Origin: Solirubrobacterales bacterium | GTDB lineage: Bacteria; Actinomycetota; Thermoleophilia; Solirubrobacterales; Solirubrobacteraceae | Assembly (NCBI GenBank): GCA_019240655.1 | Contig: JAFAXX010000191.1 | Span: forward strand, 1-44,980 | Direction: 5' to 3' | Length of the DNA stretch: 44,980 nucleotides | Shown: piece after piece, positions 28,248 to 36,386 of the stretch | Layout of the letters: the number at the start of each line of letters is the position of its first letter | Numbering within the stretch: position 1 is the stretch's first letter | Program-made: the position numbers and the translations under genes | Notes under the pieces: generated by a model | The model's input: only the letters and a program-made list of their open reading frames with translations | Databases searched by the model: none | Told to the model about the DNA's origin: nothing

Positions 28248-30548
28248 GTGGTCTCCCGCCCGCCGGTCGATCGGGTGATGCACCCGGAGGCGCACCCCGA
28301 CGTCGACCGGGTCGAACTCAATGCGGCCGAGCGGCGGCTGCTCAGCGACCTGTTCGCGATCCTCGAGGAACACACGCACGAGGCGGCCGTGTCGGTCGAC
28401 CGCGACCGCGTCGAGCAGGCGTTCGTGTACGCCTGCGTGCACCACGCCGACCAACGCCGCAAGTCCGGCGAGGACTTCATCAACCACCCCGTGGGCGTGG
28501 CGAAGATCTGTGCCGGCATGCGCCTCGACACCGAGACGCTGTGCGCCGCGCTGCTGCACGACACGGTCGAGGACACGTCGGCATCGCTCGACGAGGTCAA
28601 GGAGGCCTTCGGGGAGGAGATCGCCGGGCTGGTCGACGGCGTGACGAAGCTGACCGGGCTGACGTTTCAATCGCGCGACGAGGCCCAGGCCGAGAATTAC
28701 CGCAAGATGATGGTGGCGATGGCCTCGGACATCCGGGTCATCTTGATCAAGCTGGCCGACCGCCTGCACAACATGCGCACGATCGGCGCGATGCCCAAGC
28801 ACAAGCAGATCGAGAAGGCGCGCGAGACGCTTGACATCTACGCGCCGATCGCCCACCGCCTCGGCATCCATGCCATCAAGTGGGAGCTCGAGGACCTGGC
28901 GTTCCAGACCCTGCATCCGCGCAAGTACAACGAGATCAAGGGCTTGGTGGCCCAGCAGCGGACCGAGCGCGAGCGGTATGTCACCCAGGCAGGCGAATAC
29001 CTGAGCAAGGAGCTCAACGAGCTCGGCATCGAGGCCGAGATCTCCGGCCGCGCCAAGCACTTCTACTCGATCTACTCGAAGATGACCAAGAAGGGGCGCG
29101 AGTTCAACGAGATCTACGACCTCACGGCGATGCGGGTGATCGTCGGCTCGGTCAAGGACTGCTACGGCGCGGTCGGCGTGATCCACTCGCTGTGGAAGCC
29201 GCTGCCGGGGCGCTTCAAGGACTTCATCGCGATGCCGAAGTTCAACATGTACCAGTCGCTGCACACCACGGTGATCGGGCCCGAGGGCCGGCCGCTGGAG
29301 ATCCAGATCCGCACCCGGGAGATGCACGAGCTGGCTGAGTTCGGAATCGCCGCGCACTGGATGTACAAGGAGCGCGGCAATCGCCGAAGTGGCAAGGCGC
29401 CCTCCCCGGAGGCCGACGGCAAGCTCAAGTGGCTGCGCTCGCTGCTCGACTGGCAGCAGGAGGAGGCCGACCCGCGCGAGTTCATGGAGACGCTCAAGGT
29501 CGACCTGTTCGAGGACGAGGTATACGTCTTCACCCCGAAGGGCGAAGTGAAGTCGCTGGCCGCCGGGGCGACCCCGCTCGACTTCGCCTATGAGATCCAC
29601 ACCGACGTCGGCCACCGTTGCGTGGGCGCCAAGGTCAACGGCAAGATCGTTCCGCTCTCCTATCAGCTGCGCTCCGGCGACATCGTCGAGGTACTCACTT
29701 CCAAGCGCGAGCGAGGGCCCTCGCGGGACTGGCTCGCGCTCGTCAAGACCACCCGCGCCCGCAACAAGATCAAGGCGTGGTTCAAGGCCGAATCGCGCAA
29801 GGACAGCGAGCACAGCGGCCGCGAGCTGCTGCAGGACCACCTGAAGAAGCAGGGGCTCCCGGCTCAGAAGATCGTCGGCTCGCCGCTGTTGGCGGACGTG
29901 ATTCGGGAGATGGGCTACCGCAAGGCGGACGACTTCTACATCGCGCTGGGCGCCGCGAAGGTCTCAGCCAAGGTCGTCGTCAACAAGGTCATGCAGCGCC
30001 TCAAGGCGGGTGAGGCGGCCGAGTCGGAGCCGACCGCCGCGGACGATTTGCTGCAGACCCGCCGCCGCCGGTCGCGGCCGACCACCTCCTCCTCGAGCTA
30101 CGGGATCTCGGTCGAGGGCATCGACGAGGTGATGCTGCGCCTGGCCAAGTGCTGCCGCCCGGTGCCCGGCGACCCGATCATCGGCTATATCTCGCTCGGG
30201 CGCGGGATCACCATCCACCGCGAGGATTGTCCGAACGTCGCCGTGCTCAAGAAGGACCCGGAGCGCTTCACCGCGGTCTCGTGGGAGGGCGACGCCGAGA
30301 CCTCGTTCCGGGTCGAGATCGAGGTCGACGGCTGGGATCGCCACCGCCTGCTCGAGGACATGTCGAGGACGTTCGCGGAGGCCGGGATCAACATCCTCGA
30401 GGCGCGCTGCAGCGTCAACCACCCGATGGTCAAGAACCGCTTCGTTGTCGAGGTCGGCGACACGCGGACGCTCGACCAGACGATCAACCGCCTGCGCAAC
30501 ATCGACGCGGTGTTCGACGCCTACCGGGTCACTCCGAGCGCGGGGTGA
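28248..30548 (+). CDS. rel: Bifunctional (p)ppGpp synthetase/hydrolase
   Basis: 766 residues. Hydrolase domain: HHADQRRKSGEDFINHP, LLHDTVEDT (HD and ED pairs, about 100-110) and LADRLHNMRT. Synthetase domain: RAKHFYSIYSKM, YDLTAMRVIV and the charged RFKD motif (about 322) that marks Mg-dependent bifunctional enzymes rather than EXDD RelA. TGS domain about 420-485 (VYVFTPKGEVKSLAAG), a zinc-finger-like region with CCRPVPGD, and a C-terminal ACT domain (about 685-760). All catalytic sites look intact, so it should both make and degrade the alarmone. GTG at 28248 has GAGG five bases upstream; ATG at 28278 is an alternative. Confidence 0.97.
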   Translation: MVSRPPVDRVMHPEAHPDVDRVELNAAERRLLSDLFAILEEHTHEAAVSVDRDRVEQAFVYACVHHADQRRKSGEDFINHPVGVAKICAGMRLDTETLCAALLHDTVEDTSASLDEVKEAFGEEIAGLVDGVTKLTGLTFQSRDEAQAENYRKMMVAMASDIRVILIKLADRLHNMRTIGAMPKHKQIEKARETLDIYAPIAHRLGIHAIKWELEDLAFQTLHPRKYNEIKGLVAQQRTERERYVTQAGEYLSKELNELGIEAEISGRAKHFYSIYSKMTKKGREFNEIYDLTAMRVIVGSVKDCYGAVGVIHSLWKPLPGRFKDFIAMPKFNMYQSLHTTVIGPEGRPLEIQIRTREMHELAEFGIAAHWMYKERGNRRSGKAPSPEADGKLKWLRSLLDWQQEEADPREFMETLKVDLFEDEVYVFTPKGEVKSLAAGATPLDFAYEIHTDVGHRCVGAKVNGKIVPLSYQLRSGDIVEVLTSKRERGPSRDWLALVKTTRARNKIKAWFKAESRKDSEHSGRELLQDHLKKQGLPAQKIVGSPLLADVIREMGYRKADDFYIALGAAKVSAKVVVNKVMQRLKAGEAAESEPTAADDLLQTRRRRSRPTTSSSSYGISVEGIDEVMLRLAKCCRPVPGDPIIGYISLGRGITIHREDCPNVAVLKKDPERFTAVSWEGDAETSFRVEIEVDGWDRHRLLEDMSRTFAEAGINILEARCSVNHPMVKNRFVVEVGDTRTLDQTINRLRNIDAVFDAYRVTPSAG

Positions 30549-34684: not shown

Positions 34685-34702
34685 CACCCGCACATAGCTG
34701 TA

Positions 34703-34810
34703 CGCATCCAGAGGGGTGGAGGGAAATGGCCCTGTGAAGCCCCGGCAACCGCCCGCAAGGGAATGGTGCCAATTCCATCAGGCTCCAACTACAAAGGCCT
34801 GGGAGATGTG
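34703..34810 (+). promoter_or_regulatory. SAM-I (S-box) riboswitch aptamer
   Basis: The conserved core is complete and in order: AGAGGGGTGGAGGGA (34710-34724), TGGCCCTGTGAAGCCCCGG, CGGCAACC (34743-34750) and ATGGTGCCAATTCC (34763-34776). P1 can form between CGCATC (34703-34708) and GATGTG (34805-34810). P4 can form between CAGG and CCTG near 34779-34801. S-box RNAs bind S-adenosylmethionine and usually switch off sulfur-amino-acid genes. Here the switch precedes the threonine-synthase-like gene. Confidence 0.95.
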
Positions 34811-34812
34811 GA

Positions 34813-34856
34813 CTGGCGGTTAGTTCCGACCTCCGACCACTGACCCCGGCGGAGGT
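34813..34856 (+). promoter_or_regulatory. Riboswitch expression platform: two exclusive hairpins, one covering the ribosome site
   Basis: Hairpin B pairs ACCTCCG (34829-34835) with CGGAGGT (34850-34856), hiding the GGAGG that lies 8 bases before the ATG. It is followed by TTTTT, so it could also act as a terminator. Hairpin A pairs CTGG-c-GGTTAGT (34813-34824) with ACTGACCCCGG (34839-34849) and cannot coexist with B. A would leave GGAGG free. How SAM chooses between them is not evident from the sequence. Confidence 0.7.
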
Positions 34857-34862
34857 TTTTAT

Positions 34863-36098
34863 ATGCCGCCAGAGTCGCTTCGCTGCAGGGAATGCAAGAC
34901 CACCTATCCGCTCGACGCGAGGTACGTGTGCGAGTGCTGCTTCGGCCCGCTCGAGGTCGCCTACGCCGCGCCGACCGCAGCCGATCCAGACGAGATCAAG
35001 CGCCGGATTCAGGCCGGCCCGCACTCGCTCTGGCGCTACCGCGACTTCCTGCCCGTGCAGGCACCCCCGCGCGGCGCGCTGCCGGCCGGCTGGACGCCGC
35101 TGCTCCGCGCCGACCGCCTGGCCGGGGAGCTCGGCCTGCGCGAGGTGTGGATCAAGAACGACGCCGCCAACCCGACGCACTCGTTCAAGGATCGGGTTGT
35201 CTCCGTGGCGCTGGCACGGGCTCACGAACTGGGCTTCGACACCCTCGCCTGCGCCTCCACGGGAAACCTGGCCAATGCCGTCGCCGCCCATGCCGCCGCC
35301 GCGGGGCTGAACTCGTACGTGTTCATCCCCGCCGATCTCGAGGAGCAGAAGGTGCTCGCGACCGGCGTCTACGGCACCAATCTGGTCGCCGTGCGCGGCA
35401 CCTATGACGACGTCAATCGTCTCTGCACCGAGATCTCCGGCGAGCACGAGTGGGCGTTCGTGAACATCAACATGCGCCCGTACTACGCCGAGGGCTCGAA
35501 GACGCTGGCGTTCGAGACCGCCGAGCAGCTCGGCTTCGAACTACCCGATCGCGTGGTCGCGCCGATCGCCTCCGGCTCGCTGTTCACCAAGATCGCCCGC
35601 GGCTTCGAGGAGTGGCTCGCGGCCGGCCTGCTCGAGGGAACGCCGCCGACGTTCAACGGCGCGCAGGCGGAGGGATGCTCGCCGGTGGCGAGCGCCTTCT
35701 CCGCCGGCCACGACATCTGCCGGCCGGTGAAGCCGGACACGATCGCCAAGTCGCTGGCGATCGGCAATCCGGCCGACGGGCCGTACGCACTCGACCTCGC
35801 GCGCCGCACCGGCGGATCGATCGATTCGGTCAGCGACGAGGAGATCCGCGAGGGCATCCGCCTGCTCGCGCAGACCACCGGCATCTTCACCGAGACGGCC
35901 GGCGGGGTCACCGTGGCCACGCTGCGCAAGCTGGCCCGGCGCGGGGACATCGATCGCGACGAGCGAGTCGTCGCCTACATCACCGGCGAGGGGCTGAAGA
36001 CGCTCGACGCGGTCCGCGGCACGTTCGAGGCGTGGCAGATCGAGCCGACGCTCGAGTCATTCGAGCAGGCGAGCCAGCGCGTGGCCGCGATCGCGTGA
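34863..36098 (+). CDS. thrC: Threonine-synthase-like PLP enzyme under SAM riboswitch control
   Basis: 411 residues. Two CxxC pairs (C8/C11 and C23/C26) form an N-terminal zinc ribbon. A fold-type II PLP domain follows. The Schiff-base Lys is K109 in PTHSFKDR (most threonine synthases read PTGSFKDR), and STGNLANAVAAHAA is the substrate loop. The phosphate-binding loop is PIASGSLFTK instead of the usual Gly-rich GNxGN-type loop. The family acts on O-phosphohomoserine. The start ATG is 7 bases after the GGAGG hidden by the riboswitch platform. A MoaD/ThiS-like gene follows after 15 bases. The standard call is threonine synthase. The riboswitch and the sulfur-carrier neighbour make a homocysteine-forming activity a serious alternative. 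Confidence 0.85.
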   Translation: MPPESLRCRECKTTYPLDARYVCECCFGPLEVAYAAPTAADPDEIKRRIQAGPHSLWRYRDFLPVQAPPRGALPAGWTPLLRADRLAGELGLREVWIKNDAANPTHSFKDRVVSVALARAHELGFDTLACASTGNLANAVAAHAAAAGLNSYVFIPADLEEQKVLATGVYGTNLVAVRGTYDDVNRLCTEISGEHEWAFVNINMRPYYAEGSKTLAFETAEQLGFELPDRVVAPIASGSLFTKIARGFEEWLAAGLLEGTPPTFNGAQAEGCSPVASAFSAGHDICRPVKPDTIAKSLAIGNPADGPYALDLARRTGGSIDSVSDEEIREGIRLLAQTTGIFTETAGGVTVATLRKLARRGDIDRDERVVAYITGEGLKTLDAVRGTFEAWQIEPTLESFEQASQRVAAIA

Positions 36099-36113
36099 TA
36101 AGACAGCAGCGCG

Positions 36114-36386
36114 ATGGCAGTCACGGTCAAGATCCCCACTCAGCTCCGCGCCGCCACCGACGGCGAGTCGACGGCGAAGGTCGACGGCGCCACCGTCGGC
36201 GAGGTGCTCGATGCCCTGTACGCGCGCTTCGGCGAGCTCCGCAGCCGGATCGCCGAGGACGGTGGCCTGCGTCGCTTCGTGAACGTCTACGTCGGCGGGG
36301 AGGACATCCGTTTCCTCGACGGCCTCGACACGTCGGTGTCGGACGGTGACGAGGTGACGATTCTGCCTGCGGTCGCGGGCGGGTAG
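36114..36386 (+). CDS. MoaD/ThiS-family ubiquitin-like protein with C-terminal Gly-Gly
   Basis: 90 residues with a beta-grasp fold. VTVKIPTQLRAATDG, VGEVLDALYARFGELRSRI, FVNVYVGGEDIRFLDGLD and DGDEVTILPAVAGG follow the order known for MoaD, ThiS and CysO. The intact C-terminal Gly-Gly is what an E1-like enzyme adenylates and converts to a thiocarboxylate. In Mycobacterium, CysO supplies sulfur to the PLP enzyme CysM. Here the partner in the operon is the threonine-synthase-like enzyme, so it may be its sulfur donor. Molybdopterin synthase function is less likely because no moa gene is near. No MoeB-like activator or JAMM protease gene is in the window. Confidence 0.9.
   Translation: MAVTVKIPTQLRAATDGESTAKVDGATVGEVLDALYARFGELRSRIAEDGGLRRFVNVYVGGEDIRFLDGLDTSVSDGDEVTILPAVAGG

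Follow-up and report, generated by a model that had tools for sequence, protein, structure and literature searches.

A SAM-I aptamer, a threonine synthase-like gene and a sulfur carrier gene lie in a row

What does an enzyme annotated as threonine synthase do when an S-adenosylmethionine (SAM) riboswitch aptamer precedes its gene and a sulfur carrier gene follows it? This question is raised by contig JAFAXX010000191.1 of a Solirubrobacterales bacterium (assembly GCA_019240655.1; 91.5% complete, 4.4% contamination), of which we analyzed positions 1 to 44,980, hereafter the window. The locus is very probably a metM-metO pair, whose pyridoxal phosphate (PLP) enzyme and carrier are predicted to make homocysteine from O-phosphohomoserine with sulfur from the carrier thiocarboxylate, under the SAM-I aptamer. 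Carrier-dependent homocysteine synthesis from this substrate had been put forward in the initial annotation. The genomic comparisons described below support it as the best reading of the sequences, and it had already been published in 2024 as MetM/MetO. The locus is likely a new example of that pathway and not a new pathway. Its features, all on the forward strand, are the following:

34701..34812, +, SAM-I (S-box) riboswitch aptamer (Rfam RF00162, 85.7 bits, complete)
34813..34872, +, predicted expression platform (minimum free energy (MFE) folding)
34863..36098, +, predicted metM, PLP enzyme of the threonine synthase family, MetM clade, 411 amino acids (TIGR00260, identity, tree)
34884..34940, +, four-cysteine N-terminal segment, C8, C11, C23 and C26 (alignment conservation)
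35172..35195, +, active-site lysine motif PTHSFKDR, residues 104-111 (sequence, alignment)
35562..35591, +, altered loop PIASGSLFTK, residues 234-243 (alignment with canonical ThrC)
36114..36386, +, predicted metO, ubiquitin-fold sulfur carrier, 90 amino acids (PF02597, NF041918, TIGR01687)
36378..36383, +, Gly-Gly at the carrier C-terminus, predicted thiocarboxylate site (sequence)

The aptamer scores far above the RF00162 gathering score of 44.4 bits (E 5e-19) and is complete at both ends, as initially annotated except that it starts at 34701 and not at 34703. The enzyme of the threonine synthase family and the Gly-Gly carrier likewise lie where they had been placed, with 15 bases between the metM stop and the metO start. 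Scoring of 150 out of 167 first-look candidates in the assembly gave no second SAM-I aptamer. Because of this, and because other genomes of the phylum show the arrangement again, the order of aptamer, enzyme and carrier is beyond chance.

The closest published counterpart comes from Streptomyces. Hasebe et al. 2024 (AEM 90:e01247-24), as cited in the available part of PMC12172450, described the homocysteine synthase MetM, which converts O-phosphohomoserine to homocysteine. According to the same part of that article, a SAM riboswitch lies upstream of S. albulus metM, and a sulfur-carrier gene adjoining Microcystis thrC is likened to S. albulus metO. As far as the available text describes it, the S. 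albulus system shares with the window a ThrC-like PLP enzyme, an upstream SAM riboswitch, a carrier gene and the predicted substrate O-phosphohomoserine; the window differs from Streptomyces in coming from another class of the phylum, and the enzymes are about 56% identical. The abstract of the 2024 Streptomyces study is said to name thiocarboxylated MetO as the sulfur donor and to describe the MetM/MetO pair as widely spread.

The enzyme differs from canonical threonine synthase in its active site and N-terminus

By curated models, the window enzyme belongs to the threonine synthase family (288.9 bits to NCBIfam TIGR00260 thrC, cut-off 167.1) and also matches Pfam PF00291. Among the 120 matches listed for it, every name shown is threonine synthase and the named organisms are Solirubrobacteraceae. 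The cysM model gives 45.3 bits, far under its cut-off of 394.2, which places the enzyme outside the cysteine synthase family. Over 409 residues it is 55.7% identical to a Streptomyces-type protein from genome G023, compared with 37.4% to the canonical ThrC of its own genome. The G023 protein is 98% identical to a protein of a named Streptomyces, and through it we recognized the Streptomyces members of the group.

We surveyed 217 genomes of the phylum, taking MetM counts among the matches listed, in which weak or short ones may be missing. These matches form two groups separated by a gap, one with about 51-75% identity to the window enzyme (the window itself apart) and the other with at most 43%. 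The first group, which we call MetM, occurs in at least 81 of the 217 genomes. We read 80 of its loci; G127, where MetM is split on two contigs, was left out of the loci and kept among the 81 genomes.

For the alignment and the tree, 85 MetM rows (the 80 loci plus five of 80 named loci, all Streptomyces) were set against 20 canonical ThrC rows. In a tree built by a quick method the two sets fall on opposite sides of a single branch (Shimodaira-Hasegawa-like approximate likelihood ratio test, SH-aLRT, 100), although both were chosen by identity to the query and the separation is therefore partly built in. The expected split between this subfamily and canonical ThrC is thus seen, and the tree would count as consistency more than as independent proof.

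The alignment shows where the two sets differ. Forty columns are at least 95% fixed in the 85 MetM rows and carry the same residue in at most one of the 20 ThrC rows. Nine of them belong to an N-terminal extension that is absent from the 20 ThrC and six fall between residues 197 and 212; the loop at 236-238 is also among them. At 236-238 MetM has A/S/G (99-100% fixed in the 85), compared with G/N/A in canonical ThrC: PIASGSLFTK stands where canonical ThrC has PVGNAGNITA, and the window enzyme lacks the canonical GNAGN loop. This loop position binds the phosphate of PLP, and the lysine of PTHSFKDR-type motifs forms the PLP Schiff base in this enzyme family. Both motifs had been initially annotated as altered. 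The loop bears this out, but PTHSFKDR is not diagnostic: it occurs in 51 of the 85 MetM relatives, and canonical PTGSFKDR in three. Cysteines C8, C11, C23 and C26 are 95-96% conserved in the 85 MetM rows and fall in a gap in all 20 ThrC rows; the segment is likely a zinc ribbon, with zinc binding predicted from this pattern. Together, the ASG loop and the four N-terminal cysteines provide a sequence signature that can be used to re-annotate MetM.

The host genome encodes other carriers and a probable separate cysteine route

The carrier (36114-36386) ends in PAVAGG and scores over the cut-offs of SAMP1 (NF041918), MoaD_arch (TIGR01687) and ThiS (PF02597). Its nearest solved sequences are 4n6e_B and then 3dwg_C, the latter presumably Mycobacterium CysO. 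The gene next to it encodes the PLP enzyme and not a MoaE partner. Four ThiS-family proteins are encoded in the genome, the window carrier included. Elsewhere there is a ThiS over cut-off, with a neighbor that looks like ThiG by eye, and on contig C39 a MoaD-MoaE-like frame that is under the curated NCBIfam cut-offs and over that of Pfam. As ThiS, the MoaD-MoaE-like frame and CysO are encoded separately, we rejected a molybdopterin or thiamine carrier; the presence of a separate MoaD-type carrier also speaks for the homocysteine reading, which the initial annotation would have taken as refuted if the window carrier clearly belonged to molybdopterin synthesis.

Among 59 carriers beside metM in relatives, 37 end exactly in GG. 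The other 22 have AGG followed by a tail of one to about fifteen residues, which a protease would have to trim off, a step that the window carrier would not require.

The CysO-like carrier lies on contig C76 (32257-36419, locus L207), together with a MoeZ-like E1, a CysM-like enzyme and a JAMM desampylase-like protein. This region is likely the CysO cysteine route of the same genome. The rhodanese-E1 reaches 575.4 bits to PRK08762 (cut-off 449) and is the sole ThiF-family protein over cut-off in the assembly; the JAMM protein, with 77.7 bits, is below its model cut-off of 130. In Mycobacterium tuberculosis, the corresponding CysM/CysO/Mec system joins a PLP enzyme to a Gly-Gly carrier that is charged by an E1.

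The window pair could be another CysM/CysO system that forms cysteine from O-phosphoserine. Like CysM/CysO it combines a PLP enzyme with a carrier of a related family, as the match to 3dwg_C indicates, and its carrier and the CysO of the same genome share 47% identity. However, a cysO-cysM pair with its MoeZ-like E1 and JAMM desampylase-like protein is already present on C76, the window enzyme scores with ThrC and only weakly with cysM, and cysteine synthesis would leave the SAM switch unexplained. The two systems also differ in that the substrate in the window would be one carbon longer, its enzyme is of ThrC and not CysM kinship, and its carrier, with GG at the very end, would not have to be trimmed, whereas the genome's own CysO ends in GGSR. 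We give this explanation next to no credence, and the homocysteine synthase assignment of the pair is retained.

The arrangement recurs across the phylum

An aptamer match to RF00162 is found upstream of 54 of the 80 MetM loci and a carrier within 400 nt downstream of 59. Both are present at 44, in agreement with the initial suggestion that aptamer, enzyme and carrier are kept together in other genomes. The presumed Streptomyces loci have the same order as the window in seven of seven cases. At 20 canonical thrC loci, of which 13 come from MetM-bearing genomes, neither an aptamer (0/20) nor a carrier match (0/20) was found.

The short distance at which the carrier follows in 59 of 80 loci (15 bases in the window) and its conserved AGG end stand against a variant in which the enzyme makes homocysteine from free sulfide and the neighboring carrier helps in part or serves another acceptor. 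In favor of that variant are the 21 loci without a carrier found within 400 nt, and the ThiS-family proteins encoded elsewhere in all 20 genomes searched for them, 18 of which are carrier-less at metM. In addition, a nitrite/sulfite-reductase-family gene lies downstream of MetM in G175, but none was seen downstream in G111, which belongs to the same family. We consider a free-sulfide enzyme unlikely for the window, where sulfur delivery by the MetO carrier is the preferred reading.

Some families depart from the common order. The ten loci of family f14 (L047, L051, L053, L056, L060, L069, L073, L077, L081 and L090) have neither an aptamer nor a neighboring carrier that we could find, with only 334 nt of downstream sequence at L090. 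In families f6, f20 and f57 (six loci) the aptamer is present and a neighboring carrier was not found. One of these loci is L098 of G175 (f6), where the reductase-family gene lies about 160 nt after the metM match on the minus strand; its MetM possibly uses free sulfide. The other f6 locus is L095, that of G111.

MetM, a probable homocysteine route, is often the only route found

To compare routes, we also counted metX, metA and HcyBio (PF01837) in the 217 genomes. The metX threshold was set in the gap between 171.5 and 371.9 bits, because none of the 217 genomes or of 14 controls reached the curated cut-off of 500. By these measures metX is present in 75 genomes, metA in 26, HcyBio in 49 and MetM in at least 81. 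HcyBio, also known as DUF39, makes homocysteine from aspartate semialdehyde; it is an alternative route through an unrelated protein. It never shares a genome with a listed MetM (0 of 81, compared with 49 of the 136 others). At the family level, MetM (25 families) and HcyBio (15) share none of the 59 numbered families (P-value 5e-5). MetM against any other route gives a P-value of 2.9e-16 (Fisher test, ignoring kinship), and in 59 of the 217 genomes MetM was found, among the matches listed, without any of the three other routes. This distribution agrees with a homocysteine route, and a threonine synthase would hardly account for it.

Strict exclusivity between MetM and metX was rejected, as 18 of the 81 listed MetM genomes have both. 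Among the matches listed, none of the four routes was found in 23 of the 217 genomes, for which auxotrophy or a further route is possible.

The initial annotation had expected classical homocysteine genes to be lacking where MetM is present. This holds for the window's own assembly, where metX, metA and HcyBio were not detected, but not for the 18 genomes with metX. In the own assembly the best metX match has only 124.7 bits (371.9-478.4 in the main metX group), and the search found no metA or HcyBio. A search with the family model PF01053, used in place of single metB, metY and metZ models, gave one full-length Cys_Met_Meta enzyme, which is nearest to cystathionine gamma-lyase (307.7 bits, cut-off 440); of two further matches, one is partial and sits exactly at the PF01053 cut-off and the other falls short of it. 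A homocysteine-methyltransferase-domain protein is present as a 1243-residue frame and is likely MetH. In the same-family relatives G100 and G121 (single contig), metX and metA were not found. A protein thiocarboxylate also donates the sulfur for homocysteine in Wolinella, through HcyS, with O-acetylhomoserine and a MetY-type enzyme. The predicted type of sulfur donor is what the window shares with that route; it differs in its ThrC-type enzyme and in a genome without detected metX.

The predicted leader fold hides the ribosome site

Folding of the sequence 3' of the aptamer returned an outer helix (34813-34820/34865-34872) that encloses a hairpin at 34828-34857, whose 3' arm contains the Shine-Dalgarno sequence GGAGG (34851-34855). 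A TTTTT run at 34856-34860, the first two T of which are paired in the stem, ends two bases before the metM ATG. The MFE of 34813-34880 is -31.5 kcal/mol, a value reached by two of 2000 shuffles of the 5' part; the hairpin folded alone has -14.6 kcal/mol. Full pairing of the Shine-Dalgarno sequence is less rare, occurring in 394 of 2000 shuffled sequences of the window leader. A terminator scan with a loop limit of 8 returned no site on the + strand because of that limit, and the hairpin came from folding instead. The shape of the modeled leader is compatible with an OFF state alongside a formed aptamer, and SAM may be what closes this expression platform.

In relatives, the Shine-Dalgarno sequence is mostly paired in 36 of 54 leaders, a count to which we give no weight because the start codons of the relatives are script guesses and the shuffle control covered the window alone. 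The seven Streptomyces loci differ from the window: their script-chosen starts lie 18-19 nt past the aptamer and the ribosome site is mostly unpaired, whereas the hairpin of the window hides it.

Weighing homocysteine against threonine synthesis

Several observations weigh against the assignment of the pair to homocysteine synthesis. With TIGR00260, the window enzyme (288.9 bits) scores much as the canonical ThrC of the same genome does (289.3 bits), and the proposed orthology to S. albulus MetM/MetO draws on Streptomyces relatives and gene order. The carrier shares 48% identity with the Streptomyces carrier and 47% with the CysO of its own genome, and those two share 48% with each other; on these figures, carrier sequence alone would not separate MetO from CysO. 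No aptamer match was found at 26 of the 80 loci (three with less than 250 nt upstream) and no neighboring carrier at 21 (two with less than 400 nt downstream). Among the 81 listed MetM genomes, metX occurs in 18 and metA in four (metX or metA in 22), and G154, from the window's own family, has both MetM and metX. With an assembly 91.5% complete and 4.4% contaminated, metX could be missing from the assembly. The whole leader including the aptamer only modestly beats shuffled sequences (z -1.8; nine of 200 fold equally well), and the ribosome site stays closed in the fold even when the first P1 strand is forbidden, so that no ON state was found.

The most direct objection comes from Microcystis. 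According to the available part of PMC12172450, an enzyme 51.6% identical to S. albulus MetM and with a metO-like neighbor is mainly a threonine synthase, has threonine synthase and deaminase activity, and is seemingly not fully functional as MetM in the cell. More than 50% identity together with a carrier therefore does not settle the reaction.

The window enzyme could accordingly make threonine, as the usual or an additional synthase or as a synthase/deaminase, with SAM control as a coincidence and a carrier that serves another purpose. Besides this cyanobacterial relative, its best curated family is thrC, and a SAM riboswitch precedes a two-gene transcript labelled 'Threonine biosynthesis' in S. 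lividans (2021; available part of PMC8079986). On the other side, the second canonical thrC that the initial annotation had proposed to look for is present on contig C179, with a GNAGN loop and followed by thrB. Because this thrC-thrB pair exists and none of the 20 thrC loci has an aptamer or a carrier match, an ordinary threonine synthase was rejected. The active-site columns also differ, and listed MetM and HcyBio are mutually exclusive. We judge a threonine synthase very unlikely here, and homocysteine synthesis by MetM/MetO remains our reading of the locus.

A predicted pathway and its consequences

The genes found in the assembly suggest how MetM/MetO would work in this organism. ThrB, whose gene lies beside the canonical thrC on the other contig, would supply O-phosphohomoserine. 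The MoeZ-like E1-rhodanese encoded beside cysO-cysM would adenylate and thiocarboxylate the carrier C-terminus, on the assumption that it accepts this carrier as well. Using PLP, MetM would release phosphate and place sulfur at C-gamma, so that the product would be homocysteine and not the threonine that results when water is added; we infer this step from kinship with the published enzyme and the altered active site. A MetH-type enzyme would then methylate homocysteine. At high SAM, the aptamer would bind it and the downstream hairpin would hide the ribosome site and perhaps end transcription, lowering both enzyme and carrier; aptamer and hairpin come from the model match and folding, from which the switching is predicted.

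In a wider scheme, cysteine made by CysO-CysM and homocysteine made by MetO-MetM would be the products of two parallel thiocarboxylate branches that share one E1-rhodanese, SAM would shut only the homocysteine branch by lowering its enzyme and its sulfur donor at once, and MetM would be the main homocysteine route in actinobacteria without metX, metA and HcyBio. We give this scheme an even chance of being right. To the published pathway, the present analysis adds the counts across the phylum, the alignment columns that mark MetM, its mutual exclusion with HcyBio, and a genome in which two carrier-enzyme pairs and a single E1 were found. As both pairs would share a single activating enzyme, carrier specificity is directly testable in this genome. 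In annotations the MetM type still goes under the name threonine synthase, and automated tools may therefore call some actinobacteria methionine auxotrophs. The data suggest that MetM fills the apparent homocysteine gap in the 59 genomes where, among the matches listed, the three other routes were not found.

Elsewhere in the window, a long open reading frame at 28248-30548 has, by eye, the look of a RelA/SpoT-type (p)ppGpp synthetase/hydrolase.

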